Source: Fervidobacterium nodosum Rt17-B1
GTDB taxonomy: Bacteria; Thermotogota; Thermotogae; Thermotogales; Fervidobacteriaceae
Direction: 5' to 3'
Assembly (NCBI RefSeq): GCF_000017545.1
Contig: NC_009718.1
Location: 558,001 to 622,000, forward strand
Length of the DNA stretch: 64,000 bases
Shown: positions 24,133 through 56,870 of the stretch, piece by piece
Layout of the letters: each line of letters starts with the position of its first letter
How positions within the stretch are numbered: position 1 is the first letter of the stretch
Translations under genes and position numbers: made by a program
The notes under the pieces: model-generated
The model's database searches: none
Told to the model about the DNA's origin: nothing
The model's input: the letters and a program-made list of their open reading frames with translations, nothing else

Positions 24133-25821
24133 TCATAAATACTTCAATACTTCATCAATTGCCTCAACAACAGGGCTGTGTCCAACATCTTTTAAGACTA
24201 CAAGTGTTCCTTTCGGGAAAGCTTTGGCGGTGAATTCCATCTGCTCGCGTGTTAGTAAAACGTCTTTGTCACCGTATATAACTACAACTGGAATATTTAC
24301 ATTTTTCACTACGTCGGTAAAGTTATAGGAAGATAAGGCCCTTGCGTTGCCTTCGAAAGCTTCTTTTGCCATTCTCAACGCGTCTGCTGTTATTTTATCA
24401 AAGAATCTCTCATCATCGTAATTTGGCGCATTGAACATCAAAGCCTTCTTTATCATACCAGGATTGTAGCTGTACAATCTAACTACCTTGTACCCTTCTT
24501 CCGGCATGTACATACCATTCACTGGCGCTGGGTCAACAAGAATAAGTTTTTTAATCTTATCCGAATTCTTTATGGAATAAGCCATCGCGACAGCTCCACC
24601 AAGCGAATGACCAAGTAAAATAAAATCTTTCAAACCCAATTTATCGACAAATGCCTCTAACGCCTTTGCGTAATTTTCTATAGTTATATCACCCTTAAGT
24701 TTATCGGAAAAACCAAAATTCGGTAAATCAAGCGCATAGGCGGTGTATTCTTTTGGAAGTTTACTCAAAAAAGGCTCAAAAAACCTTGCAGAAGCGAAAT
24801 TACCGTGTACAAGAACTACTGGGATTTGACCATTGCCTCTCTTTACGTAATGAATCTTTCCTTGCGATGTTTCAACAAATTTTCCATACGGTCTCTTAGA
24901 ACGCATGAAGAACGGTAAAACTCTATTCAAATAAGCTGTTCTGAACCTTTTCAGATAATAACTCACGCCAAATGGCATAAACAAAACCACAAAGATTAGA
25001 ATTATACCGAATATTATCGACATAGACAAATGCGTACGACTGAATAGGAACGGCAAAGCAACGTATATTATCGAACCATAATATGGTCCATCCAAAGAAG
25101 CCATACCTCCGATAACAGATATCGCAAGTAAATCAAGAGAACGGGCGATACCAAAATCACTTGGTGCAATATACCCGATAACATGCGCATAAAGAGCACC
25201 TGCTATACCAGCGAACATCGAACCAATCGCAAACGCCAACACCTTGTACCTTGCAACATTTATACCAACAACAGATGCCGCAATCTCATTCTCCCTTATA
25301 GCCATCCAGCCTCGACCTGTTTTGGAATTGATTAGCCTATCGGAAATTACGTAAGTTATAAATACAAAAGCAAGAACGATTAGATATTTTTCGACATCAG
25401 AATTCCAAATATGTGGGAACGGAATCCCCCTTATTCCTGCATGCCCACCTGTCACATGTTCAAGTGTGCTGAAAAGTTGCTCAACAGCAACGACAAACCC
25501 CATAGTAGCTATGGCAAGGTAAAAACCAGAAAGCCTAAGTGCTGGAAATCCGATCAAAAGTCCCAAGAAAAACGCAACTAAACCACCTAAGATAACACCA
25601 AATATAATTGGAACATTGTAATGCATAACCAAAAGTGTAGAAGTATAAGCGCCGATGCTCATAAACGCCGCGTGACCTATCGATATCTGCCCTGAGTACC
25701 CCATTATTATATTCAACCCTAAGGAGGCAATTGAGAAAATCCCAACGAGACTTAAAATAGTTATTATGAACGAACTCTTTAAAAGTATGAATGGTATGAA
25801 CGCTAGTATTATCCAAATCAT
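24133..25821 (-). CDS. LivM-type ABC permease fused to alpha/beta hydrolase
   Basis: Residues ~1-300 are a branched-chain-amino-acid-type permease (LivM): GYSGQISIGHAAFMSIGAY, GFPALRLSGFYLA, GRGWMAIRENEIAA (contact with the ATPases) and a final helix near 285. A basic stretch (YYLKRFRTAY, MRSKRP) follows, then residues ~320-562 form a complete alpha/beta hydrolase: VLVHGNFAS oxyanion region, GHSLGGA nucleophile, YGDKDVL acid and DVGHSPV His. The frame is continuous. By the positive-inside rule the hydrolase should be cytoplasmic. LivM proteins normally end after the permease. ATG 25821 is chosen, eight bases after AAGGAGG; GTG 25824 is also possible. It overlaps the LivH stop. Confidence 0.92.
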   Translation of the reverse strand: MIWIILAFIPFILLKSSFIITILSLVGIFSIASLGLNIIMGYSGQISIGHAAFMSIGAYTSTLLVMHYNVPIIFGVILGGLVAFFLGLLIGFPALRLSGFYLAIATMGFVVAVEQLFSTLEHVTGGHAGIRGIPFPHIWNSDVEKYLIVLAFVFITYVISDRLINSKTGRGWMAIRENEIAASVVGINVARYKVLAFAIGSMFAGIAGALYAHVIGYIAPSDFGIARSLDLLAISVIGGMASLDGPYYGSIIYVALPFLFSRTHLSMSIIFGIILIFVVLFMPFGVSYYLKRFRTAYLNRVLPFFMRSKRPYGKFVETSQGKIHYVKRGNGQIPVVLVHGNFASARFFEPFLSKLPKEYTAYALDLPNFGFSDKLKGDITIENYAKALEAFVDKLGLKDFILLGHSLGGAVAMAYSIKNSDKIKKLILVDPAPVNGMYMPEEGYKVVRLYSYNPGMIKKALMFNAPNYDDERFFDKITADALRMAKEAFEGNARALSSYNFTDVVKNVNIPVVVIYGDKDVLLTREQMEFTAKAFPKGTLVVLKDVGHSPVVEAIDEVLKYL

Positions 25822-26699
25822 CACGCTCGCCTCCTTATGTTTTTACCAAACAAACCCTTCGGGAAAAACACAAGAACGATTATTATTATCGCAAGTGATA
25901 TCGTTGCTTTGAAACCTTCAGAGATATAGTTTCCAACAAGCTTTTCAATAACACCAAGTATCAACCCTCCAAATACTGCTCCTGTGAACGTCTCAAATCC
26001 ACCTAACACAGCAGCTGTGAATCCTTGAATTTGGTAGAAAGTCAACATCGTAGGTGAAACAAAGACCTTCGGAGCAGCTATAATCCCAACTAGCGCTGCC
26101 ATAGAAACACCGAATGCCCAAGAGAAAGCCAAAATCTTACCAACGTTTATTCCCATATATCCAGCAATTTCCTCGTTTTCGGAAACAGCCCTTACCGCAA
26201 TGCCAAATTTTGTGAATTTCATAAACAGAGCGATTAATACTGAGATAACAACAAGTGTGGTAAAAACTAAAACATCCTGTCTTCTAAGTACGATAATCCC
26301 GAAATCTCCTTTGAAGATATACGGCGTACCAGTGACAAGTTCGGGAAGAGATTTGTACTCAGTTCCCCAAATCTGCACCGCTAAACCTTCCAAAATCATC
26401 AAAAGACCAAACGTAACGATAAGCATTGAACCGTGCGATAAATGTCGTATAGGTCTCAAACCAAATCGCTCGACAAAAATACCCATAAGTGCCGCAAATA
26501 TTATTCCCATAATGATTGAAACGTACATATTCAAACCCAAAGCACTTGTCAACCACCAGATGATATATGTTGCGAACATACCCATATTGCCGTACGCAAA
26601 GTTCATAACTCCACTGACTTTGTACATCATAACAAGTCCAATAGCCACAAGTGAATACATAGCACCTGTTGAAAGACCTAAAATCATTTGATTTATCAT
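25821..26699 (-). CDS. LivH-type ABC transporter permease
   Basis: This 292-residue inner-membrane permease has about eight helices and family segments: LSTGAMYSLVAIGLVMMYKVSGVMNFAYGNMGMF at the N terminus (read in part), FGIAVRAVSENEEIAGYMGIN (ATPase contact loop), and GGFETFTGAVFGGLILGVIE near the end. With the LivM fusion it forms the membrane channel of a HAAT-family importer. It overlaps LivF upstream and the LivM fusion downstream by four bases each, so expression is tightly coupled. Confidence 0.9.
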   Translation of the reverse strand: MINQMILGLSTGAMYSLVAIGLVMMYKVSGVMNFAYGNMGMFATYIIWWLTSALGLNMYVSIIMGIIFAALMGIFVERFGLRPIRHLSHGSMLIVTFGLLMILEGLAVQIWGTEYKSLPELVTGTPYIFKGDFGIIVLRRQDVLVFTTLVVISVLIALFMKFTKFGIAVRAVSENEEIAGYMGINVGKILAFSWAFGVSMAALVGIIAAPKVFVSPTMLTFYQIQGFTAAVLGGFETFTGAVFGGLILGVIEKLVGNYISEGFKATISLAIIIIVLVFFPKGLFGKNIRRRA

Positions 26700-27418
26700 T
26701 TTTTAACACCCCCGAGGTACTTTTCTCTTACAAGGTCACTACCAAGTAATTGTTTTGCATCGCCTTCAAGAGCCACTCTTCCATTTTCAAGCACGTAACC
26801 GTAATGAGATATACTAAGCGCGACGGATGTATTCTGTTCAACTAAAACAACCGTTATACCTCGTGAGTTAATTAATTTTACAACATCAACTATCTTGTCG
26901 ATAATTATCGGTGCAAGACCAAGCGAAGGCTCATCTAAAAGAAGATAGCGAGGATTAGCCATCAAAGCTCTTGCGATTGCAAGCATCTGCTGTTCACCAC
27001 CGGAGAGTGTACCAGCAATTTGGTTTAATCTATCTTTCAAAAATGGAAACACATCGAAAACAAAATCTAAATCCGGCTTCTTATTCAAATAAGCTCCTGC
27101 CAAGAGATTTTCCTTTACAGTTAAAGAATAAAAAATACCCCTACCTTCTGGGCATAACACGATACCTTTCCTAACTCTCTCATGGACAGGCAGATGATTA
27201 ATAGATTCATCTCCGAGCAGCACCGTACCAGATGACTTAACGCCACCAACAATTGCCTTAAGCGTTGAAGTCTTACCAGCACCGTTTGCCCCTACTATCG
27301 CCGTTATCTTCCCAGCTTCAATTGTCAAATTAACGCCTTTTACCGCATGGACTGGGCCGTAAAAAACATTCAATCCTTTGACTTGTATATCCAATGCGTT
27401 ATCTAATGTTTTACTCAT
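26696..27418 (-). CDS. LivF-type ABC transporter ATP-binding protein
   Basis: The 240-residue ATPase has Walker A (GANGAGKTS near residue 42), signature LSGGEQQML, Walker B (YLLLDEPSLGLAP) and switch His region (VLVEQNTSVAL). The CPEGRGIF Q-loop-adjacent motif is characteristic of LivF. It powers the LivH/LivM importer on the cytoplasmic face together with LivG. It overlaps LivG by eight bases and LivH by four. Confidence 0.92.
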   Translation of the reverse strand: MSKTLDNALDIQVKGLNVFYGPVHAVKGVNLTIEAGKITAIVGANGAGKTSTLKAIVGGVKSSGTVLLGDESINHLPVHERVRKGIVLCPEGRGIFYSLTVKENLLAGAYLNKKPDLDFVFDVFPFLKDRLNQIAGTLSGGEQQMLAIARALMANPRYLLLDEPSLGLAPIIIDKIVDVVKLINSRGITVVLVEQNTSVALSISHYGYVLENGRVALEGDAKQLLGSDLVREKYLGGVKK

Positions 27419-28184
27419 TTTCTTTCACCTCTTTCGCACTACTACCGAGGTATGCCTTTACAACTTCCTCGTTGTTAACAATCTCCGCTGGGGTCCCTTC
27501 AGCTATCTTCTTTCCAAAATTTAAAACGGTAATCCTATCTGATATATCCATAACCATCCGCATATCGTGTTCAACCAAAAGAACGGTTACATCTTCACTC
27601 TTCACTCGAAGTATCTTTTCTTTAAAAATATCTGATTCCTTCTCCGTGAGCCCAGCAGCTGGCTCATCGAGAAGGAGTATTTTTGGCTCACTCATAAGGG
27701 CTCTTCCCACATCGATTAACTTTTGATAACCATAAGGAAGAGTACCCGCATACAATCCAAGAATTCCTTTTATACCTAAAATATCTGCAACTTCAATCGC
27801 TTTAAGCAGGGCTTTTCTCTCAGTTTTTAAATAATTATTCGTTGAGAATATCTCATCAAAATGATTGTATTGTGCATGCGAATGATAACCGAGAATCAAA
27901 TTTTGCAAAACAGTTAAGTATTTAAAGATGATAACATTTTGGAAACTCCTTCCAAGTCCATAATTCACCCTCTTGTAAACAGGTACCTTAGTTATATCTT
28001 TCCCATCAACGATAACCCTTCCCTCATGTTTAACAAGTCCGGAAATAACATTAAAGACGGTCGTCTTTCCAGCACCGTTGGGACCTATAAGTGAGTGTAT
28101 AGTTTTTTCTTGAACATGCATATTAAGATTATCAACGGCAACTAGCCCCGAAAATCGAACAGTTATATTCTCAAGTTTCAGCAT
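27411..28184 (-). CDS. LivG-type ABC transporter ATP-binding protein
   Basis: The 257-residue ATPase shows Walker A (GPNGAGKTT near residue 34), GLGRSFQNV (Q-loop region), a signature replaced by the weaker LPYGYQKLIDVGRAL, Walker B (ILLLDEPAAGL) and LLVEHDMRMV. The family usually reads LSYGQQR at the signature, so this form is near normal for LivG. It pairs with LivF. A possible attenuator hairpin lies between the binding-protein gene upstream and this gene. Confidence 0.9.
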   Translation of the reverse strand: MLKLENITVRFSGLVAVDNLNMHVQEKTIHSLIGPNGAGKTTVFNVISGLVKHEGRVIVDGKDITKVPVYKRVNYGLGRSFQNVIIFKYLTVLQNLILGYHSHAQYNHFDEIFSTNNYLKTERKALLKAIEVADILGIKGILGLYAGTLPYGYQKLIDVGRALMSEPKILLLDEPAAGLTEKESDIFKEKILRVKSEDVTVLLVEHDMRMVMDISDRITVLNFGKKIAEGTPAEIVNNEEVVKAYLGSSAKEVKENE

Positions 28185-28287: not shown

Positions 28288-29448
28288 TTATGGCCTTATT
28301 AAATCTGTTAGTGGAACAAACTGTTTGTTTTTAACAACCATGAGGTACATCGATGACTTACCGCGTCTTAGATTTGGTCCCCATGTTATATCCTTTGCAA
28401 GAATTCCATTCCAATTCTTGAAACTCTCAAGTGCTTTTACAAGTCCTTCTCTTGTAAGATTCTTACCAGCTCTGACAAGTCCTTCTGTAAATACCTCAGC
28501 TGCTATAAAACCAGCAACAGCGTATGAAGATGGAATTTGCTTTGGATAAGTAATTTGGAATATGGAAATAGCCCTCTGATAATCCCTAACGAAATCAGGT
28601 CTATCTGGTGTTGCGAGTGGGACCCATCCTGTGAAGATAACACCTTCAGCGTAATTTCCAGCAAGGCTAATGAATGATGGATCAGCATTAGGATAAATCG
28701 TTATAATCTTACTGTTAAGACCGTAATCTCTTATTGTCTTAATCCATCTGATTGTATCAGTTATAAGTCCGTAGATAATTACAACATCTGGATTCTTCTC
28801 GACTAATTTTACAACTAAACCACTGTAATCTGTATCCGCCGGGTTGTAGGAAATTTCCACAACTGGTGACATTTTGTAATCACTGAGTTTACCTTTAAAT
28901 GCAGTGTATCCTTCTAAACCAATATCGTTGTTCATGTAAACAATAGCTGGTGATTTGAACTTAGCAATTTCTCCGACGTACTTTGCGATGAGTGTACCTT
29001 CAAGTGTGTAGTCTGGTTGCACACCGAATATATATCTTTTTGGAGGAACAACAAGCTTTGATGTACCCGCACCTTGGTAAACGAACGGTACTTTGTTTTG
29101 TTCAAGATAATCCATAACGGCAAGACAACCATAGGTACCGAGCCCACCAACTATGGCAAAAACCTTATCTTGCTCAACAAGTCTTTTTACTTCAACAACT
29201 GTCTTCGCGGGATTAAGCTGATCATCAGCGACTATGAGTTCAATCTTTCTTCCGTAAACTCCGCCACGGTTGTTAACCCAATTGAAGTAAGCTTTCATAC
29301 CTTTTGTCATTTCTTGACCGATAACTGCATAAGGACCTGATAATGCTTGAAATGTTCCAATAACCACCTTATCGTTGTAAACTCCAACCTCTGCAAATAT
29401 ACTCACAAACAAACCTAAGAACAACAAAACACTCAGTAACTTTCTCAT
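28288..29448 (-). CDS. LivK/LivJ-type ABC substrate-binding protein
   Basis: A signal peptide (MRKLLSVLLFLGLFVSIFA) precedes a type-I periplasmic binding fold of the leucine-binding class: VVIGTFQALSGPYAVIGQEMTKGM, the LIVADDQLNPAKT strand, VGGLGTYGCLAVMDYL and YAVAGFIAAEVFTEGL. It captures the ligand outside the membrane and hands it to the LivH/LivM channel. The family binds amino acids, amides, aromatic acids and small acyl compounds, so the ligand is open. It precedes the ATPase and permease genes and follows the CoA-transferase by 49 bases, in the same direction. Confidence 0.9.
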   Translation of the reverse strand: MRKLLSVLLFLGLFVSIFAEVGVYNDKVVIGTFQALSGPYAVIGQEMTKGMKAYFNWVNNRGGVYGRKIELIVADDQLNPAKTVVEVKRLVEQDKVFAIVGGLGTYGCLAVMDYLEQNKVPFVYQGAGTSKLVVPPKRYIFGVQPDYTLEGTLIAKYVGEIAKFKSPAIVYMNNDIGLEGYTAFKGKLSDYKMSPVVEISYNPADTDYSGLVVKLVEKNPDVVIIYGLITDTIRWIKTIRDYGLNSKIITIYPNADPSFISLAGNYAEGVIFTGWVPLATPDRPDFVRDYQRAISIFQITYPKQIPSSYAVAGFIAAEVFTEGLVRAGKNLTREGLVKALESFKNWNGILAKDITWGPNLRRGKSSMYLMVVKNKQFVPLTDLIRP

Positions 29449-29497: not shown

Positions 29498-30796
29498 CTA
29501 GATTAACCCAATTTCCTTTGCCTGCTTTGTTAACTCTTCACGAAAATCAGGGTGAGCTATTGATATCAAAGCCTGAACACGCTTTCGTGTTGGAAGACCT
29601 CTCAATCTAACAGCACCCCACTCTGTAACGATGTAATCCAATTCCTGTCTTGGAACGGTAATCGGCGAACCAGCTGGTAACATTGGAACTATCGTTGAGA
29701 CCGTTCCATCTTTTGCAGTTGAGCGCATAGCGATTATCCCTTTACCACCTTTACTCTTCACAGCACCTCTGTGTGTGTCAAGCTGCCCACCTGTACCACT
29801 GTAATGTCTTGTGCCAATCGCTTCCGAGCACACGTTACCAGTCAAATCAACCATCAAAGCTGTATTAATACTTACCATCTTCTCATTTTGAGCTATAACG
29901 TACGGATCGTTGACATACCTTCCCCTCAAAAACAAAACCGCGGGATTTTCATCAAGAAATTCATACATCTTCTTCGAACCGTACGCGAACGTACAGACAA
30001 ACTTTCCATTCCATAAGGTTTTTCTTTTGTTAGTTATTGCACCAACCTCAAAGAGCTCAATCATACTCTCTGTAAACATCTCCGTGTGTACCCCGAGGTC
30101 TTTTTTGTCCTTTAAAAACTTCGCAACAGCATTTGGGATACCACCAATACCCAATTGAATAGTTGATCCATCATCTATAAGTTCGACGATATTCTCCGCA
30201 ATCTTCCTCTCAACGTCCATAGGTTCAAGCAATTCCGCCTGAGGTAATTCGTAATCTACCTCTATTATGTAATCCACATCCGATATATGAACTTGTGTAT
30301 CCCCATGTGTTCGAGGAGCGTTCGGATTTACCTCCAAAACAACCATATCCGCGTGTTCAAGCACATCTTTTTCGTAAACCACACTCGCAGAGAGCGTTAA
30401 AAAACCTTTCGAATCCATAGGTGATGCCACACCGACAAAAACATTTATTTTCGTTGTTTCGATGAGATTTGTCGCCGATTGGTGGAGATTGTTTGGAACG
30501 TAATACGTATTCTTTGAAAGATTCCTGTTGTACGGACCAAAAAACCAAGAGTAATTGTAAAACTTATCGAAATACTCTGGCTTACTGCAGTAATCGTAAG
30601 GTTCGGTATTCAAACACGTAAAAACCTCTAAACCTTTAGCTTTTGTGCGGTGCAAATTCCTTTGAAAAACCTTCGGTTCCATAGGAGTCATACCCACGAC
30701 TATAGTCCAATCATCCTCAAGCTTTGAGAGTACGTAATCTACATCGACAACTTTTTCTTTGTACATCTTATCAAAATCCATAGGAAGTCCCATCAT
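29498..30796 (-). CDS. Acetyl-CoA hydrolase/CoA-transferase (4-hydroxybutyrate CoA-transferase-like)
   Basis: The 432-residue protein belongs to the acetyl-CoA hydrolase/transferase family. It shows the CoA-binding GIGGIPNAVAKFL segment, the catalytic-Glu region TEMFTESMIELFE, the NAPRTHGDTQVHISDVDY segment and the C-terminal EWGAVRLRGLPTRKRVQALI. Such enzymes move CoA from acetyl-CoA (or similar) to a carboxylic acid such as 4-hydroxybutyrate or butyrate. Its ATG overlaps the stop of the TetR-like gene. Beside an importer with a fused hydrolase, it probably activates the released acid. Exact substrate is not readable. Confidence 0.87.
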   Translation of the reverse strand: MMGLPMDFDKMYKEKVVDVDYVLSKLEDDWTIVVGMTPMEPKVFQRNLHRTKAKGLEVFTCLNTEPYDYCSKPEYFDKFYNYSWFFGPYNRNLSKNTYYVPNNLHQSATNLIETTKINVFVGVASPMDSKGFLTLSASVVYEKDVLEHADMVVLEVNPNAPRTHGDTQVHISDVDYIIEVDYELPQAELLEPMDVERKIAENIVELIDDGSTIQLGIGGIPNAVAKFLKDKKDLGVHTEMFTESMIELFEVGAITNKRKTLWNGKFVCTFAYGSKKMYEFLDENPAVLFLRGRYVNDPYVIAQNEKMVSINTALMVDLTGNVCSEAIGTRHYSGTGGQLDTHRGAVKSKGGKGIIAMRSTAKDGTVSTIVPMLPAGSPITVPRQELDYIVTEWGAVRLRGLPTRKRVQALISIAHPDFREELTKQAKEIGLI

Positions 30797-31989
30797 TTCA
30801 CCCCTAATCCTCTACATATGTACTCGTAGAGATCCTTCAAGAAAAACTCTAAAACCTCTCTCTTTTCCCCCTTCATCTGACCAGCCAACAAATACCTTTC
30901 TCCTATGTAATGACCAAAACTCATAAGCATAATGGCAAGGTAATTGATTTCTTCTTCATGGGCGTATTTGCCTTTTAAAACTAAATTTCCACTTTCGACA
31001 GATTTTCTCAAAGCATTTACGTAAGGTCTATAAATAGACAAATAATACTCTTTCGCTATATCCCTATCTATAGTCTGACTCTCCCTCACTATCCTGTACA
31101 TGTTTGAATGCATTTTAAAAAATTGAACAAATGCGTACAATCCGGCTATTTCTTGGACCAACCTATTACACTTTTGACATCTTTCAACCGCAAGTTTGAC
31201 GTTGTACCTTAGACCTTTATTTATCCAACGCACAAGTTCATGCAACAACTCCAGTTTATTCTTAAAATACAAATAAAACGTGCCGACCGCTATTCCTGAA
31301 GCTTTAGCTATATCGTAAACCTGCGTTTTTTCATACCCATAAGTGCCAAATAGAGTTTCCGCGTTGGCAAGTATATGTTCTCTTTTCTCATCGATTTCAA
31401 TAACGTGCTTTTTCGGTTGAAATGCGAATACTTCCGGAATCAAAACATCGGGGCACTCTAGGACAATACCGCTCACCAACAAATCAACGAAATGCTCACC
31501 AACTATCTCAGTCTCAATTAAATCTGAGAATCCAACCACAAACTTTAGAGGAGACCAAAAGTAAAAATACCCCACATCCGTTAAATCAAATTTTTCAGAT
31601 ATGTTTCTAAAGATACCATCGTACTCATTCCTAATCCATTCAAAAAGATATTCATTTAAATGGACAATCTTGAAAAGCTTCTGATTCTTTTTAGCGTATT
31701 CTAAATAATTGAGAGCAGATTCTTTTAAATTGGAGGCTTTCAAATTATCATTTAAATCTTCAAAAAACTCCTCCAATATCTCCCTAAAAAGCTCGTCTTT
31801 GTTTATGTAATACTGATAAAATGCGCCCGTGCTCATTTTCGCATGTTTTGTAATTTGCGAAATAGAAACATCTGAGAAATTCGATTTACTAAATAAATCG
31901 ATAGCGGCGGTTTTTATTTTGTTTTTTGATTCAATTCCATCAACTCTTCGTGGAATACGTTTTTGATTACCTCTCTTACCTGAATTCAT
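30793..31989 (-). CDS. Tandem double TetR-family regulator
   Basis: Two complete TetR units lie in one 398-residue chain. The first helix-turn-helix is at ~22-70 (ISQITKHAKMSTGAFYQYY with KDELF after it). The second is at ~205-255 (VYDIAKASGIAVGTFYLYF with KLELL). Each is followed by ~130-150 residues of helical ligand-type domain. TetR proteins are normally ~200-residue dimers, so this is a covalent pseudodimer or a regulator of two sites. The basic N-terminal arm (KRGNQKRIPRRV) may add DNA contact. It is co-transcribed with the CoA-transferase and is the likely local regulator, perhaps sensing an acyl-CoA. Confidence 0.9.
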   Translation of the reverse strand: MNSGKRGNQKRIPRRVDGIESKNKIKTAAIDLFSKSNFSDVSISQITKHAKMSTGAFYQYYINKDELFREILEEFFEDLNDNLKASNLKESALNYLEYAKKNQKLFKIVHLNEYLFEWIRNEYDGIFRNISEKFDLTDVGYFYFWSPLKFVVGFSDLIETEIVGEHFVDLLVSGIVLECPDVLIPEVFAFQPKKHVIEIDEKREHILANAETLFGTYGYEKTQVYDIAKASGIAVGTFYLYFKNKLELLHELVRWINKGLRYNVKLAVERCQKCNRLVQEIAGLYAFVQFFKMHSNMYRIVRESQTIDRDIAKEYYLSIYRPYVNALRKSVESGNLVLKGKYAHEEEINYLAIMLMSFGHYIGERYLLAGQMKGEKREVLEFFLKDLYEYICRGLGVK

Positions 31990-32029: not shown

Positions 32030-33013
32030 TTACATTCTAAACGCAGCAGCAACCTGCTGGAATCCAACACCAGATGTTAAGAAGATAACAAACTTACCTT
32101 TCAAATCTTTCAATTTACCTTCATCGAAAGCATCATCGTAAGCCATATATACGCATGCAGAACCTGTATAGCCATACTTATGCATAATCATGTGGGCTTT
32201 TTCCTTTGGTAATTCTAGTATTTCCATAACTTTTTCTATTGTCTTCTTCCTAACTTGCGTAAAGAAAATCATTCCAATTTCATCTTTTAAAATTCCGTAT
32301 TTTTCCAATAGTTTATTTATAAGCATTGGCCATCCTTCTTCGTTAACTGTTGCTGGGTATGCCGCTCTCAAATCTAACTTATGTAATCCCCTTTCAAAAC
32401 CTTGCAAGTTCATTGTTCCAGCGCCCATGTATATACCCCAATTCTGCCACCAACTTCCATCTGCTCGTGCCACACTGCCGATGAAACCGGGCTCATCCGA
32501 TGCCGTCAAAAGCAGAGCCCCAGCACCATCACTGAAAAGAGCTTCCCAAGAATACTTCCAACTGAGAAACTTCGTCATTGCGTAAGTACCAATCACAAGG
32601 ACGTTTTTGTAATCTCCCATAGCTATATATCGAGCTGCTATATCGAGCATAAGAGCGCCATTGGCACACGAAGCGTTGACATTAAACGCAAGAGGTTCCG
32701 CCTTGTGCGCACCGATAAGATATTGTACCCTTGGTGCGTCTGGTGGAGATACAGATTCTGGAGTATCCGTACCAACGATAATCAAGTCAATCTCTTCTGG
32801 GCTCATACCAACCCTTTGCAAAGCCTTTTTCGCAGCCTCGGCTGCCATATACGTTGGTGTCTCCCAATCCTCGGAAACGTGCCTATGATTAATACCAATA
32901 ACATCAGAAAAATAAGGATCAATCGTAAACATCGTAAGCTTCTCAAATTCAGAGTTGCTCATAATCTTCTGTGGAACATACATACCCGATGAAATAATCT
33001 TTGCATACCTCAT
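32030..33013 (-). CDS. 3-oxoacyl-ACP synthase III (KAS III)-like enzyme with altered active site
   Basis: The 327-residue thiolase-fold protein aligns with FabH: ISSGMYVPQKIMSN, RHVSEDWETPTYMAAEAAKKAL, the catalytic Cys in NVNASCANGALML (near residue 114) and GDGAGALLL-like FSDGAGALLLTAS. The FabH His motif (HQAN) is FTQVR here and the GNTSAAS segment with the second catalytic Asn is YGYTGSACV. So the Cys remains but the His and Asn used for decarboxylative condensation are changed. It may be an acyltransferase or a CoA-ester condensing enzyme rather than a fatty-acid initiator. It heads the TetR/CoA-transferase transcript, with GGGAGG before the ATG. Confidence 0.82.
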   Translation of the reverse strand: MRYAKIISSGMYVPQKIMSNSEFEKLTMFTIDPYFSDVIGINHRHVSEDWETPTYMAAEAAKKALQRVGMSPEEIDLIIVGTDTPESVSPPDAPRVQYLIGAHKAEPLAFNVNASCANGALMLDIAARYIAMGDYKNVLVIGTYAMTKFLSWKYSWEALFSDGAGALLLTASDEPGFIGSVARADGSWWQNWGIYMGAGTMNLQGFERGLHKLDLRAAYPATVNEEGWPMLINKLLEKYGILKDEIGMIFFTQVRKKTIEKVMEILELPKEKAHMIMHKYGYTGSACVYMAYDDAFDEGKLKDLKGKFVIFLTSGVGFQQVAAAFRM

Positions 33014-33099
33014 AGCAAAAAATTCCTCCCTTCAAATTTCATTCGAAACTCTTTGAAATAATAGAACAAAAATAATAAATATGAATCACCTTTCAGATT

Positions 33100-33112
33100 A
33101 TAACATAGTTAT
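33100..33112 (-). promoter_or_regulatory. Possible promoter/operator of the KAS III-like gene
   Basis: Read leftward, a TATAAT-like box overlaps a small inverted repeat, ATAAC-N3-GTTAT (33100-33112), about 90 bases before the start codon. No good -35 is visible. The rest of 33014-33242 shows nothing else. Confidence 0.35.
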
Positions 33113-33242
33113 CTAAATAAAAAATCCGTTTAAAATAGCCAAATTCATAATTTATGTAGATTTATAGCAACATAAAGAAAAAATGCTTCATTTTTCGGAA
33201 AATTTTATGCACAATTACATTAAACCTAAAAAATGAAAAATG

Positions 33243-33290
33243 AAAAAGCCCCACTTTTCTTTCTGATTTTTCATTTCAGTGGGGCTTTTT
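33243..33290. terminator. Terminator after the DUF4438 gene
   Basis: A 13-bp stem (33243-33255 with 33278-33290) has a 22-base loop and T-rich runs on both sides. Its main role should be ending the leftward nitroreductase-DUF4438 transcript. Confidence 0.75.
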
Positions 33291-33317
33291 TATTTTTTTC
33301 AGACTTAGATAATTAAA

Positions 33318-34166
33318 CTATATCCCGAGGTACTTTTTTATATTACTTTCCTTGTCTATAACCGGCACAATCTCTCCGTTTTGTGCTGTCATGATGATAA
33401 CCATGCCAGGGCCATGACCCGTTTTGAAACAATCGGAATGCACAACAACACCTATCGAAATCGAACCACTTTTGTATCCACCCGCACCGTATCCATTATA
33501 ATGGTCAGTGATTGCAACCAAATCACCTATTCTAACTTCATCTAAACCCACTCTTTTTACCTCTGCTTCATCTAAGGTGTTCATATCGTAATCTGTCGCA
33601 GCCGGATTACCAGCACCTATTCCAGAACCAGTTAAATAAGCAGGGACGATTGCTGTCACAGGTACGTGGATTTTTCCATCTTTTTCTTGAATTGGTATCT
33701 TCTCAAAAAGTTCAGGGTCTATATTGAACATTTTGACGTTTGGATAATCAACGAGTTCCAATCCCTGTCCCCACGCTTTTATCTGAATTTTATCACCAAT
33801 AGTCAATTTTTCCTTATCTGGTACCCAAACGAGCACATGATCAATTCCACCATGCTTACCGATGACGTAACCTTTCATTCCTTTTCCATCACCAGAAACC
33901 ACCACAGCTTCGTTACCTATACAAGCTAAGGCCATACACGTTGGATTCAAATCTTTGTTGGAATTTTTGGTACTCACATCAGGTTCAACGTGGTCACCGT
34001 GCATCTTAAACGCATTATCACCTAAACCAAAATTGTACGTAATACCACCAACTCCCGGAAAATAATACGAATTCCCATTACCATCCACAACTGGCATTCT
34101 CACAACTGGGTGCGCAACTTCCACTAATATGGAGAGCTTCACTACTTTTTCTTTGTTCGTGCGCAT
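33318..34166 (-). CDS. DUF4438 family protein
   Basis: The ~282-residue protein matches the DUF4438 family known from Thermotogae. Segments include HPVVRMPVVDGNG, GITYNFGLGDNAF, HGDHVEPDVS, MKGYVIGKHGGIDHVLVW and the Gly-rich GSGIGAGNPAATDYDM and TGHGPGMVIIMT. I know of no established biochemical role. The many conserved His/Asp/Gly residues suggest an enzyme. ATG 34166 is chosen because AGAGGAGG precedes it; a longer frame begins upstream without a site. It follows the nitroreductase gene by 40 bases. Confidence 0.82.
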   Translation of the reverse strand: MRTNKEKVVKLSILVEVAHPVVRMPVVDGNGNSYYFPGVGGITYNFGLGDNAFKMHGDHVEPDVSTKNSNKDLNPTCMALACIGNEAVVVSGDGKGMKGYVIGKHGGIDHVLVWVPDKEKLTIGDKIQIKAWGQGLELVDYPNVKMFNIDPELFEKIPIQEKDGKIHVPVTAIVPAYLTGSGIGAGNPAATDYDMNTLDEAEVKRVGLDEVRIGDLVAITDHYNGYGAGGYKSGSISIGVVVHSDCFKTGHGPGMVIIMTAQNGEIVPVIDKESNIKKYLGI

Positions 34167-34206
34167 TTTAAAACCTCCTCTGAATTTAAAAGAATTTAGA
34201 AACAAC

Positions 34207-34725
34207 TTACCATTTTTCTCGATGAATTTTCTTCATCTCTACTTCATCTAAAGAATGAAGCTGTTTTTCTTCGTTTGGATACCCAATACCAATCACACAC
34301 AATACTCTGTAGCCTTCTGGTATATTCAATATTTCCTTGACTTCACCTTCCACAGATAGGTTATTGTGGTATCTATCGTGTGCGTGACCCCAGCAGCTAC
34401 CCAAGCCAAAGTTTACAGCTAAAAGCTGGATGTACGTTGCAACAATTGAAGCATCTGACATCCAAGTACTACTATCTTCCATTGCGGTAACAACTATACA
34501 AGCTGGTGCCGTATTCAAAAATGAAAATGCACCTTCGCGTGCTTTCATAATCTTTTTGATAGTGTCTTTATCTCGTACAATTACCAACTCAACGGGTTTT
34601 GAATTTCTCCCACTCGGTGCCAAAAGTGCGTATCTTGCGATATTTTCAAGCACTTCATCAGAAACAGGCATATCTTTAAATAACCTTATACTTCTACGTT
34701 TTTGAATTATTTCGAGTATATCCAT
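34207..34725 (-). CDS. Nitroreductase-family flavoprotein
   Basis: The 172-residue protein has the FMN-binding pattern: KRRSIRLFKD near the N terminus, LLAPSGRNSKPVELVIV, and a C-terminal GYRVLCVIGIGYPNEEKQ. The family reduces nitro groups, flavins, enoates or iodinated aromatics as dimers with NAD(P)H. The mid-region GLGSCWGHAHDRYHN is His-rich. It is first in a two-gene transcript with DUF4438. Substrate is unknown. The nearby acyl-CoA-type genes hint at a redox step in the same pathway, but that is inference. Confidence 0.87.
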   Translation of the reverse strand: MDILEIIQKRRSIRLFKDMPVSDEVLENIARYALLAPSGRNSKPVELVIVRDKDTIKKIMKAREGAFSFLNTAPACIVVTAMEDSSTWMSDASIVATYIQLLAVNFGLGSCWGHAHDRYHNNLSVEGEVKEILNIPEGYRVLCVIGIGYPNEEKQLHSLDEVEMKKIHREKW

Positions 34726-48278: not shown

Positions 48279-49433
48279 TTAATGGATTTTTTCTCTTTTC
48301 CTCAGTTTTAAATATTTTTCCATTATTTCACGGTTATGTCTTATCACCGTTTTTGCCATCAAGTATATTATTTTCCTCAGTAACGGCCGCCCTCTTTTTG
48401 TTATCCGCGTTTTTCCTTTGTGTTCTCCAGAACTTTCTTCGTACAGGTTCAATCCAGCTAATTTCCTTATTTGTTTCCAGCTTTTAAACCTGCTTAACCC
48501 TCCTGTCTCTCCTAATATCGTGGCTGTCATTACCGTTCCTATCCCTGGCACACTTTCTATATATTCCCCTTCTTCTGTTTCTTCTATCATTTTTTTCATC
48601 TCTTCTTCTAGCTCTTGAATTTGTCTTGTTAATAGCTCTATTTCTTCCAATAGCATCCTTAATTTCATTTTCGCACTTTTTTGCCCTGCTCTTACTCCTA
48701 CCGATTCTCTCGCTGCTTCGTATATCTTCCGCGCCCTACTTTTCCAGTCTTTCCCCTTTGTCGATTCTTTCAATACACTTTCTATTTCTTCTACTCCAAC
48801 TCTTAATATCTCTTCCGGAAATGGATAGGTCTTTAATAATTTCATCGAACCTTCCGAAAATATGTTTTTGTATATCTTCTCATACTCAGGAAAGTATTCG
48901 TCTATTATAGCTATTACAATATTTTTTGAATTTTTTCTCTTACTTACTAATTGTTCCCTTGTCGTGGTTAATACTTTTAACTCACTATACACATCATTTG
49001 ATAAATGCATATCGAAATATCTTCCATCTTTGATTAATTTGGCTATTAATCCTGCATCTTTCTTGTCATTTTTACTAGGTGAGTTATCATCAAATTCTTT
49101 GCTTTTCTTCACATGATATGGATTTACTCCAACAAGATAATTTACTTGCTCGTTAGATTTCATTTGCCAAGCTAAAACCTTCCAATAATGCCCTGATGGT
49201 TCCATGCCTAAGATTACGTTGTTTAACCCTTCCTTTTGCTTAATAATTCTTATTTTTTCCTCTAACATTTTAATACCATCTATGGTATTATTAATCTTGA
49301 AAGGGCTAATCAAATCAATTCCACGATAATCAGTCATCCTAACCCAATGATTTCTTTTAGCAACATCAATACCGACAATTAGAGTGTCTTGAGAAATTCT
49401 TGAAACTTTTGGATTAACATACTTTTGTTCCAT
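48279..49433 (-). CDS. IS110-family recombinase (DEDD), probable -1 frameshift extension to 48175
   Basis: The RuvC-like N terminus carries the DEDD set: VGIDVAK (D23), MEPSGHYW (E78), NDKKDA (D123, D126). The C terminus has SVPGIGTVMTATILGETGGL and the Ser-bearing ESSGEHKGKTRITKRGRPLLR of the Tnp_20 domain. The zero frame stops after 384 residues (KLRKREKIH). A slippery T-TTA-AAA lies 24 bases earlier (plus coordinates 48306-48312). A -1 slip there gives KTEEKRKNPLKETQALIAIGLK and 43 further residues with the normal family ending, stop at 48175-48177. Either programmed frameshifting or a base indel explains this. The start follows AGGAGG. Confidence 0.9.
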   Translation of the reverse strand: MEQKYVNPKVSRISQDTLIVGIDVAKRNHWVRMTDYRGIDLISPFKINNTIDGIKMLEEKIRIIKQKEGLNNVILGMEPSGHYWKVLAWQMKSNEQVNYLVGVNPYHVKKSKEFDDNSPSKNDKKDAGLIAKLIKDGRYFDMHLSNDVYSELKVLTTTREQLVSKRKNSKNIVIAIIDEYFPEYEKIYKNIFSEGSMKLLKTYPFPEEILRVGVEEIESVLKESTKGKDWKSRARKIYEAARESVGVRAGQKSAKMKLRMLLEEIELLTRQIQELEEEMKKMIEETEEGEYIESVPGIGTVMTATILGETGGLSRFKSWKQIRKLAGLNLYEESSGEHKGKTRITKRGRPLLRKIIYLMAKTVIRHNREIMEKYLKLRKREKIH

Positions 49434-55874: not shown

Positions 55875-56870
55875 GGGACACCCCCCAATATACTCTCAAT
55901 AAGGAGGTATCCCGACATGACTAATATCCAACTCAAATGCCCTCATTGCGGCTCTTCTAACTTCATCAAAAATGGTCATGATAAATTCAAAAACCAAATC
56001 TTCTTTTGCAAAGACTGCAAGCGTTACTTTAAACTTTCTTTCACCAAAAAACACAAACTTTTCTCTTTCCCTTACCCTCGTTGTGTTCATTGTAACCATG
56101 TCATGGAAATTTACAAAATCCGCCGTTATTTCGTTCGTTTCAGATGCAGAAAGTGCAACTTCAAAACTTCTGTTCCACTTTCTCTTCCTCAGCCTGTGCC
56201 TTTCAACTTTCATCCTTTCAAATTCTTCCGTTTCCCTATCTATATCATTCTCAAAGCTTTCATCTTGTACTTCAAATACAACCTTTCTCTTCGTGCTATT
56301 AAAGCTTGCTTGAATATCAATGTCTCTCATGTCGCTATTTACAAATGGATTATCAAGTTATCTTCTGTTATTTCGCTTTTTGAGTTTGAGAATGTATTTA
56401 AAGTTCACGGTGATGAAACAGTTATTGTATTTCGAGACAAAAAGTACTATGTGTGGCTATTAGTTGAGCATGGTACGAATTTAATAGTAGCTTGGCATGT
56501 ATCAAGATATCGTGATATGTCACAAGTTAAGATATTGTTAGATAAATACTTTAGTCAAAGAAAACAAAACACACAAATAGAGTTAATAACCGATGGACTA
56601 AAAGCGTACGAGATAGCAGTGAAACTAAATTTTGATAATGTTGAGCACAGAGAAGTAAGACTAGGTAAAAACAACGAATGTGAATCGAAATTTTCGTTAT
56701 TTAAGATGTTTGTTAGAGCGAAAAGGAGCTTCAAGAAATTTAGCAACATACGGTACTATGTAAATGGTTTTTGTGTAGTAAGGAACCTATGCAAGTTATA
56801 TGAGAACGAAAATGAGATGATTACAGCTTTAGCTTCCATCATCACTACTAGTTAACAACTTCTCACTCAT
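55875..56870 (+). mobile_element. Insertion sequence with IS6-like DDE transposase
   Basis: The element includes the transposase gene and a short left end containing GGGGACACCCCCC. The right end is near ACTAGTTAACA, judged from where similarity to the decayed copy at 1740-2300 stops. I could not see matching terminal inverted repeats, so limits are approximate. Confidence 0.65.
55917..56855 (+). CDS. IS6-like DDE transposase with N-terminal zinc ribbons
   Basis: The first ~80 residues contain three paired-Cys motifs (CPHCGS, CKDCKR, CVHCNH) and a fourth CRKC, suggesting two zinc ribbons. A helix-turn-helix-like part (LSLRAIKACLNINVSHVAIYKWI) follows. The DDE catalytic residues lie in VHGDETVIV, ELITDGLKAY and NECESKFSLFKMF, in IS6-type arrangement. 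The gene is intact at 312 residues. AAGGAGGTAT precedes the ATG. A decayed relative of the same element sits at 1740-2300, so the element has been active in this genome. Confidence 0.87.
   Translation: MTNIQLKCPHCGSSNFIKNGHDKFKNQIFFCKDCKRYFKLSFTKKHKLFSFPYPRCVHCNHVMEIYKIRRYFVRFRCRKCNFKTSVPLSLPQPVPFNFHPFKFFRFPIYIILKAFILYFKYNLSLRAIKACLNINVSHVAIYKWIIKLSSVISLFEFENVFKVHGDETVIVFRDKKYYVWLLVEHGTNLIVAWHVSRYRDMSQVKILLDKYFSQRKQNTQIELITDGLKAYEIAVKLNFDNVEHREVRLGKNNECESKFSLFKMFVRAKRSFKKFSNIRYYVNGFCVVRNLCKLYENENEMITALASIITTS

Follow-up and report, generated by a model that had tools for sequence, protein, structure and literature searches.

Can one polypeptide carry two TetR repressors, and if so, what does it bind and to what does it respond? 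The question is raised by a gene in the window, a 64,000-nucleotide stretch of the Fervidobacterium nodosum Rt17-B1 genome, where the sequence-only reading had placed two TetR units in a single protein at positions 30793-31989. These coordinates were right. The gene lies on the minus strand, which had not been given, and is open for 398 codons from ATG to stop; the missed stop near residue 195 that had been considered as a counter-explanation is absent. Pfam TetR_N matched the protein in two stretches (E 1.4e-26 for the whole protein, best stretch residues 206-252), and the score of 92.4 bits against a cut-off of 24 places it in the TetR family by its helix-turn-helix (HTH). The two HTH motifs previously described as intact were located in the translation, TGAFYQYY at residues 54-61 and VGTFYLYF at residues 235-242. 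The N half comprises residues 1-195 (31405-31989, minus strand), a putative DNA reader with a reduced ligand domain, and its modeled HTH helices span residues 43-49 and 54-58 (31816-31863, minus strand). The C half comprises residues 198-398 (30796-31398, minus strand), resembles FadR of Sulfolobus acidocaldarius (FadR_Sa) and is likely the acyl-CoA sensor; its modeled HTH helices are residues 224-230 and 235-241 (31267-31320, minus strand). The nucleotide positions of both HTHs were computed from residue numbers. Two TFR units in one polypeptide constitute the double-TFR, or Mce3R-type, architecture.

A reading artefact or an assembly join was ruled out, because the same fusion recurs in 33 relatives, aligned over both halves. 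When 61 genomes, the window's own and those of 60 relatives, were searched with the protein, both halves were matched in 34, and further pieces were found at contig ends in G046 and G057. In each of the 33 relatives the frame is unbroken, with a length of 362 to 451 aa, and the two separate genes that would have spoken against a fusion occur at this locus in none of the genomes searched. Records of the double TetR come from Thermotogota, Caldisericota and Bipolaricaulota; one record, L072, bears the title 'uncultured proteobacterium', and the phylum to which it belongs is doubtful. The fused protein is common to a whole class of heat-loving bacteria and to some other phyla. Identity between the two halves of one protein ranged from 17 to 34% in the 13 proteins compared. 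In a tree of halves (72 rows) the N halves, several of them on long branches, fell on one side of a branch with an SH-aLRT support of 99; the C halves fell on one side too with a support of 21 and the single TetRs with 80, the singles having been chosen by likeness to the C half, the root being arbitrary and Mce3R being left out. One ancient fusion is the simplest reading of these sequences, and the tree fits it, short of proof.

The structure of the polypeptide as one chain, a check that the sequence-only reading had proposed, was predicted with AlphaFold2 from 12 sequences, each model being one protein chain without DNA or ligand. The model of the window protein had a mean pLDDT of 87.3 and a pTM of 0.84, and that of a Bipolaricaulota relative (L074) had a pLDDT of 88.9 and a pTM of 0.87. 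The best PDB match by VIA-align was Mce3R (9b7y_A) over both halves in each case, with a Z of 23.5, an rmsd of 5.0 and 343 aligned residues for the window protein, and a Z of 24.9, an rmsd of 5.7 and 358 aligned residues for the Bipolaricaulota relative. Single TetRs matched about one half's length, the best being FadR_Sa (Z 19.2 and 17.0). By Foldseek, the TM-scores to Mce3R by query length were 0.57 and 0.56, respectively, and for the Bipolaricaulota relative FadR_Sa stood above Mce3R by E-value. Mce3R was the double TetR returned by the structure searches. The pTM values and the superposition suggest that the two halves pack as in Mce3R, and the rmsd of 5 to 6 Å allows a different angle between them. 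Relative to a nine-helix TFR unit, the predicted C half is complete (last helices 345-368 and 377-396) and in the predicted N half the last helices are cut short (138-154 and 165-173); in the N half of L074 they are full. An own ligand-type domain had been ascribed to each half; this was borne out fully for the C half but not for the N half, where the last helices are short and the ligand residues, as described below, are missing.

The double TetR is the second gene of an operon that runs leftwards on the minus strand from a promoter near 33100. A KAS III-like enzyme is encoded first (32030-33013), and the double TetR is followed by a CoA-transferase (29498-30796), a LivK-type substrate-binding protein (28288-29448), a LivG-type ATPase (27411-28184), a LivF-type ATPase (26696-27418), a LivH-type permease (25821-26699) and a LivM-type permease fused to an alpha/beta hydrolase (24133-25824). 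The stop of the double TetR overlaps the start of the CoA-transferase gene (30793-30796), whose product is nearest to butyryl-CoA:acetate CoA-transferase, below the cut-off of that model. The alpha/beta hydrolase of the LivM fusion shows PHA-depolymerase or lactonase likeness; its best hydrolase model was the NCBIfam intracellular short-chain polyhydroxyalkanoate depolymerase, at 143 bits versus a cut-off of 300. The fusion may process imported substrate at the membrane. With E 1e-60 as the threshold, the permease-hydrolase was found in 34 of the 36 genomes with a double TetR versus 1 of the 25 without, the lone match (G014) covering the hydrolase part only, with a stop; some matches are cut at contig ends, and the permease and hydrolase of G058 are separate frames. 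The CoA-transferase, the KAS III-like enzyme and the Liv-type importer with its permease-hydrolase form a conserved locus around the fused protein, to which other families add a thiolase and an SDR of the 3-oxoacyl reductase type. The Liv operon of G001, G003 and G005 is without the CoA-transferase.

Several further features of these loci were recorded. DUF4438 and nitroreductase genes (33318-34725, minus strand) adjoin the operon in many close genomes; they appear to form a unit of their own, set off by a terminator-like inverted repeat (33236-33297, minus strand) in the gap between the DUF4438 and KAS III genes; the terminator scan did not list this repeat. In the Marinitoga lauensis record (L073, 277-10924) many short frames stand in place of the homologous operon, probably owing to sequencing errors in that assembly. 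By eye, a 384-aa frame elsewhere in the window (48279-49433, minus strand) resembles an IS110-type transposase. Three places in two genomes (L210 5173-6204, L240 3116-4147 and L248 3073-4104) hold a 343-aa frame whose first residues are the same; in G004 it lies between the thiolase and the SDR, and by eye it is a transposase-like relative of window positions 55917-56855.

Then, what does the double TetR bind? Alignment of the gap before the KAS III gene from 10 genomes of two genera revealed one nearly invariant block, TATAATCTGAAAGGTGATTCA. The predicted operator within it has the 18-bp consensus AATCTGAWAnnTGATTCA and reads AATCTGAAAGGTGATTCA in the window (33082-33099, minus strand), on the promoter of the KAS III-TetR operon. 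It overlaps a TATAAT at 33097-33102 (minus strand), likely the -10 box, which a simple promoter scan did not list. A site so close to the -10 box, overlapping it or immediately behind it, would fit a repressor that acts by blocking. Most close genomes have a further direct copy 23 bp downstream; the window has a single one. A search for asymmetric operator halves upstream of both 33013 and 34725 had been proposed. The first region holds the predicted site at 33082-33099, whereas upstream of 34725 an operator match is absent within 3 mismatches, and the inverted repeat separates that unit from the KAS III operon.

The 14-bp core of the operator, TGAAAGGTGATTCA, is exact twice in the window's genome, once at the KAS III promoter and once at genome positions 342668-342681, before a remote thiolase-SDR pair, the enzyme kinds that other families keep inside the operon. 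All 15 exact cores in G000-G009 are located at the KAS III-TetR or the thiolase promoter. Genome matches with 1 or 2 mismatches outside these two promoters were treated as chance, and most of those inspected are inside frames (for example L244, L245, L246, L247 and L249). Exact or near copies stand at the thiolase promoters of G004, G007, G008 and G013, and before the thiolase 10 of the 11 close genomes with a double TetR carry a site that departs from the 18-bp consensus at no more than 2 positions; the eleventh, G006, has a degenerate site with 3. For the control, 11 genomes were searched and a thiolase was found in seven, the carrier G006 and six non-carriers, five of which were scored (L258, from G019, was left out). 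The thiolase promoters of these five relatives without a double TetR differed from the consensus at 5 or 6 positions, no better than shuffled sequence. In G001, a second KAS III-CoA-transferase pair (L206, 1-2850) carries two sites, each with 1 mismatch to the core; it is likely a third unit of the regulon, and apparently the place to which the CoA-transferase of the G001 Liv operon went.

The operator extends to other families. In ten f2 genomes, the gap between the TetR and KAS III genes contains a block like TGAATCAnnTATCAGATT, which is the same operator on the other strand. This flipped orientation between families speaks against an RNA element. A matrix was built from 21 close-genome sites, and in 16 of 21 loci of other families the best intergenic score exceeded all 60 shuffles; the operator was not recovered by the matrix in L044, L045, L046, L052 and L061, and L043 and L058 have no gap to score. 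At seven loci from public genomes, the matrix passed in four, L070 and L074 (Bipolaricaulota), L072 and L069, and failed in L068, L071 and L077. The site in L069 lies before a hydrolase gene, and that in L070 after the double TetR and before a frame read by eye as LivH-like. When the 61 genomes were scanned for the 18-bp pattern with at most 1 mismatch, 65 matches were obtained versus 9 for the reversed control, 59 of the 65 falling within the 36 genomes that carry the regulator. As to symmetry, the best dyad centre of the best sites from 39 of 42 promoters had a mean match of 0.57, owed to TGA...TCA, and the AAT of the left flank and the core are conserved and unmirrored. The sites of this analysis were chosen by consensus likeness, so that their information content is inflated, and the TetR/KAS III site of G032, exact in the pattern scan, lies outside the stretch cut for it. 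The predicted operator is only partly dyad and counts as nonpalindromic. A covalent pseudodimer on an asymmetric operator, as the sequence-only reading had it, is well supported computationally by the conservation of this only partly dyad site at the promoters of the regulon and by the superposition on Mce3R.

To ligand sensing, the comparison with FadR_Sa is informative. In the part of the FadR_Sa report available, CoA is contacted via Arg73, Lys77, Arg86 and Arg132 (PMC6449355), which align to R261, K265, R276 and P322 of the double TetR. Among 42 double TetRs, the C halves have R in the Arg73 column in 41 and in the Arg86 column in all 42; K stands in the Lys77 column in 17 of 42 and R in the Arg132 column in 1 of 42. 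The acyl-chain positions Phe97 and Phe126 are occupied by F and Y in 42/42 C halves. In the N halves, R was found in 1/42 at the Arg73 column and 2/42 at the Arg86 column. Since the CoA-contact arginines are present in the C half alone, one sensing half, the C half, is likely, and the two effectors envisaged earlier are unlikely.

The results computed here are the fusion and how far it has spread, the operator, the regulon and the residue pattern; from them we infer an intramolecular dimer, repression, an acyl-CoA effector and a substrate class. The explanation that we favor, and consider probable, is an acyl-CoA-responsive asymmetric double TetR repressor with self-paired halves, an 18-bp operator, a sensor in the C half and a regulon of two operons. 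The chain would fold on itself so that the N and C halves replace the two subunits of an ordinary TetR dimer, and the two unlike HTHs would read the unlike halves of the operator. The bound repressor would block RNA polymerase. An acyl-CoA from the encoded pathway would bind the C half as in FadR_Sa and release the repressor, with the N half serving mostly in DNA reading and in completing the dimer. One operon of the regulon would be that of the KAS III-like enzyme, the TetR itself, the CoA-transferase, the Liv importer and the hydrolase, and the other the separate thiolase-SDR operon; together they could serve the uptake and degradation of a short-chain acyl or hydroxyacyl compound.

Other arrangements of the halves were weighed against this one. 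Two chains could pair N half with N half and C half with C half, so that two symmetric TetR units are linked, every unit having a palindrome and perhaps a ligand to itself. In favor of this arrangement, the sequences of both HTHs are intact, its counterpart was considered by the Mce3R authors too, and Mce3R itself also homodimerises through another surface, according to the part of that report available (PMC11667970). The conserved operator, however, is one asymmetric element and not two palindromes, the ligand residues are absent from the N half, and the one-chain models superpose on Mce3R, whose pairing is reported there as M1 with M2 (PMC11667970); we consider this arrangement unlikely. About equally improbable is a C-C dimer that works alone on the TGA...TCA dyad while the N half decays as a remnant. 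The short dyad is retained and would be usable by a C-half homodimer, and the C half is the better conserved one, next to an N-half ligand domain that is reduced. Against it stand S42, I46, F57, Y58 and K64 of the N-half HTH, which are invariant in 26 proteins, and an AAT flank and a core of the operator that are conserved yet unmirrored.

The promoter element could also belong to another regulator, or to an RNA leader, with the double TetR controlling something else. It does sit at the transcript start, but it tracks the neighbours of the regulator to remote loci, it is missing from the thiolase promoters of relatives without the regulator, and both orientations relative to the KAS III gene occur, which an RNA element would not survive. 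We regard this as very improbable, more so than either alternative above.

Returning to the asymmetric double repressor, its history may be a single ancient fusion that gave a sensing C half and a non-sensing, DNA-reading N half, with the HTHs and the asymmetric operator kept together across three phyla (Thermotogota, Caldisericota and Bipolaricaulota). The C-half HTH, the steadier of the two, would read TGATTCA, likewise the steadier half-site, and the drifting HTH of the N half the half-site that drifts; the orientation of the site would have flipped and the target genes moved while the pairing of HTH and operator was retained. We offer this history tentatively, at somewhat less than even chances. 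If the favored explanation is true, a second double-TetR lineage exists in thermophiles, unrelated to Mce3R beyond the HTH, for which an operator has been predicted, together with a small regulon and a plausible class of ligand. Such a lineage would be a clean system for studying the evolution of a dimer once the halves of a repressor are free to differ, and a possible source of heat-stable single-chain repressors with asymmetric operators.

How does the protein compare with known regulators? No paper on this double TetR was found in the open-licence literature searched, and double TetRs are described as infrequent in the part of the Mce3R report available (PMC11667970). The same source describes M1 of Mce3R from M. 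tuberculosis as folding on M2 to form one asymmetric unit on a nonpalindromic site. Bacillus FadR and other single acyl-CoA TetRs (PDB 3whb, 5gpa) have the fold of one half in common with the double TetR; they are single units, and their ligand entry differs from that of FadR_Sa, as far as the available part of its report describes (PMC6449355). FadR_Sa (PDB 6el2, 6en8) is closer: it aligns with most of the length of the C half (E 1.9e-17) and with the first part of the N half (E 8.3e-8). The equivalents of its Arg73 and Arg86 are shared with the C halves, Lys77 is retained in part and Arg132 is not. A regulon of acyl-CoA metabolism is shared as well, whereas FadR_Sa is a single TetR that binds a semi-palindromic 16-bp motif as a homodimer (both points from the available part of PMC6449355).

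Mce3R (PDB 9b7y), like the double TetR, joins two TetR units, each about 200 aa long, in a single chain, and the nonpalindromic operator, two operator copies, a lipid-type regulon and autoregulation that are predicted here have counterparts in Mce3R, in so far as the available part of the report describes them (PMC11667970). The Mce3R-type architecture includes an extra homodimer via helix 15. The operators differ: here the site is 18 bp long and, in most close genomes, repeated at a spacing of 23 bp, whereas Mce3R has 25-bp sites 53 bp apart. The C half here, unlike that of Mce3R, is of the FadR_Sa type, and the hosts are Thermotogota, Caldisericota and Bipolaricaulota. Sequence likeness to Mce3R is confined to the HTHs (17.6 and 13.7 bits by phmmer), whereas the alignment to FadR_Sa covers most of the C half. 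An Mce3R ortholog was therefore rejected, and the double TetR is regarded as a separate lineage with the same architecture. Mce3R had already shown the architecture and the way it works; what is new is the lineage with its distribution, an operator and a regulon as predictions, and the division into a sensing and a non-sensing half.
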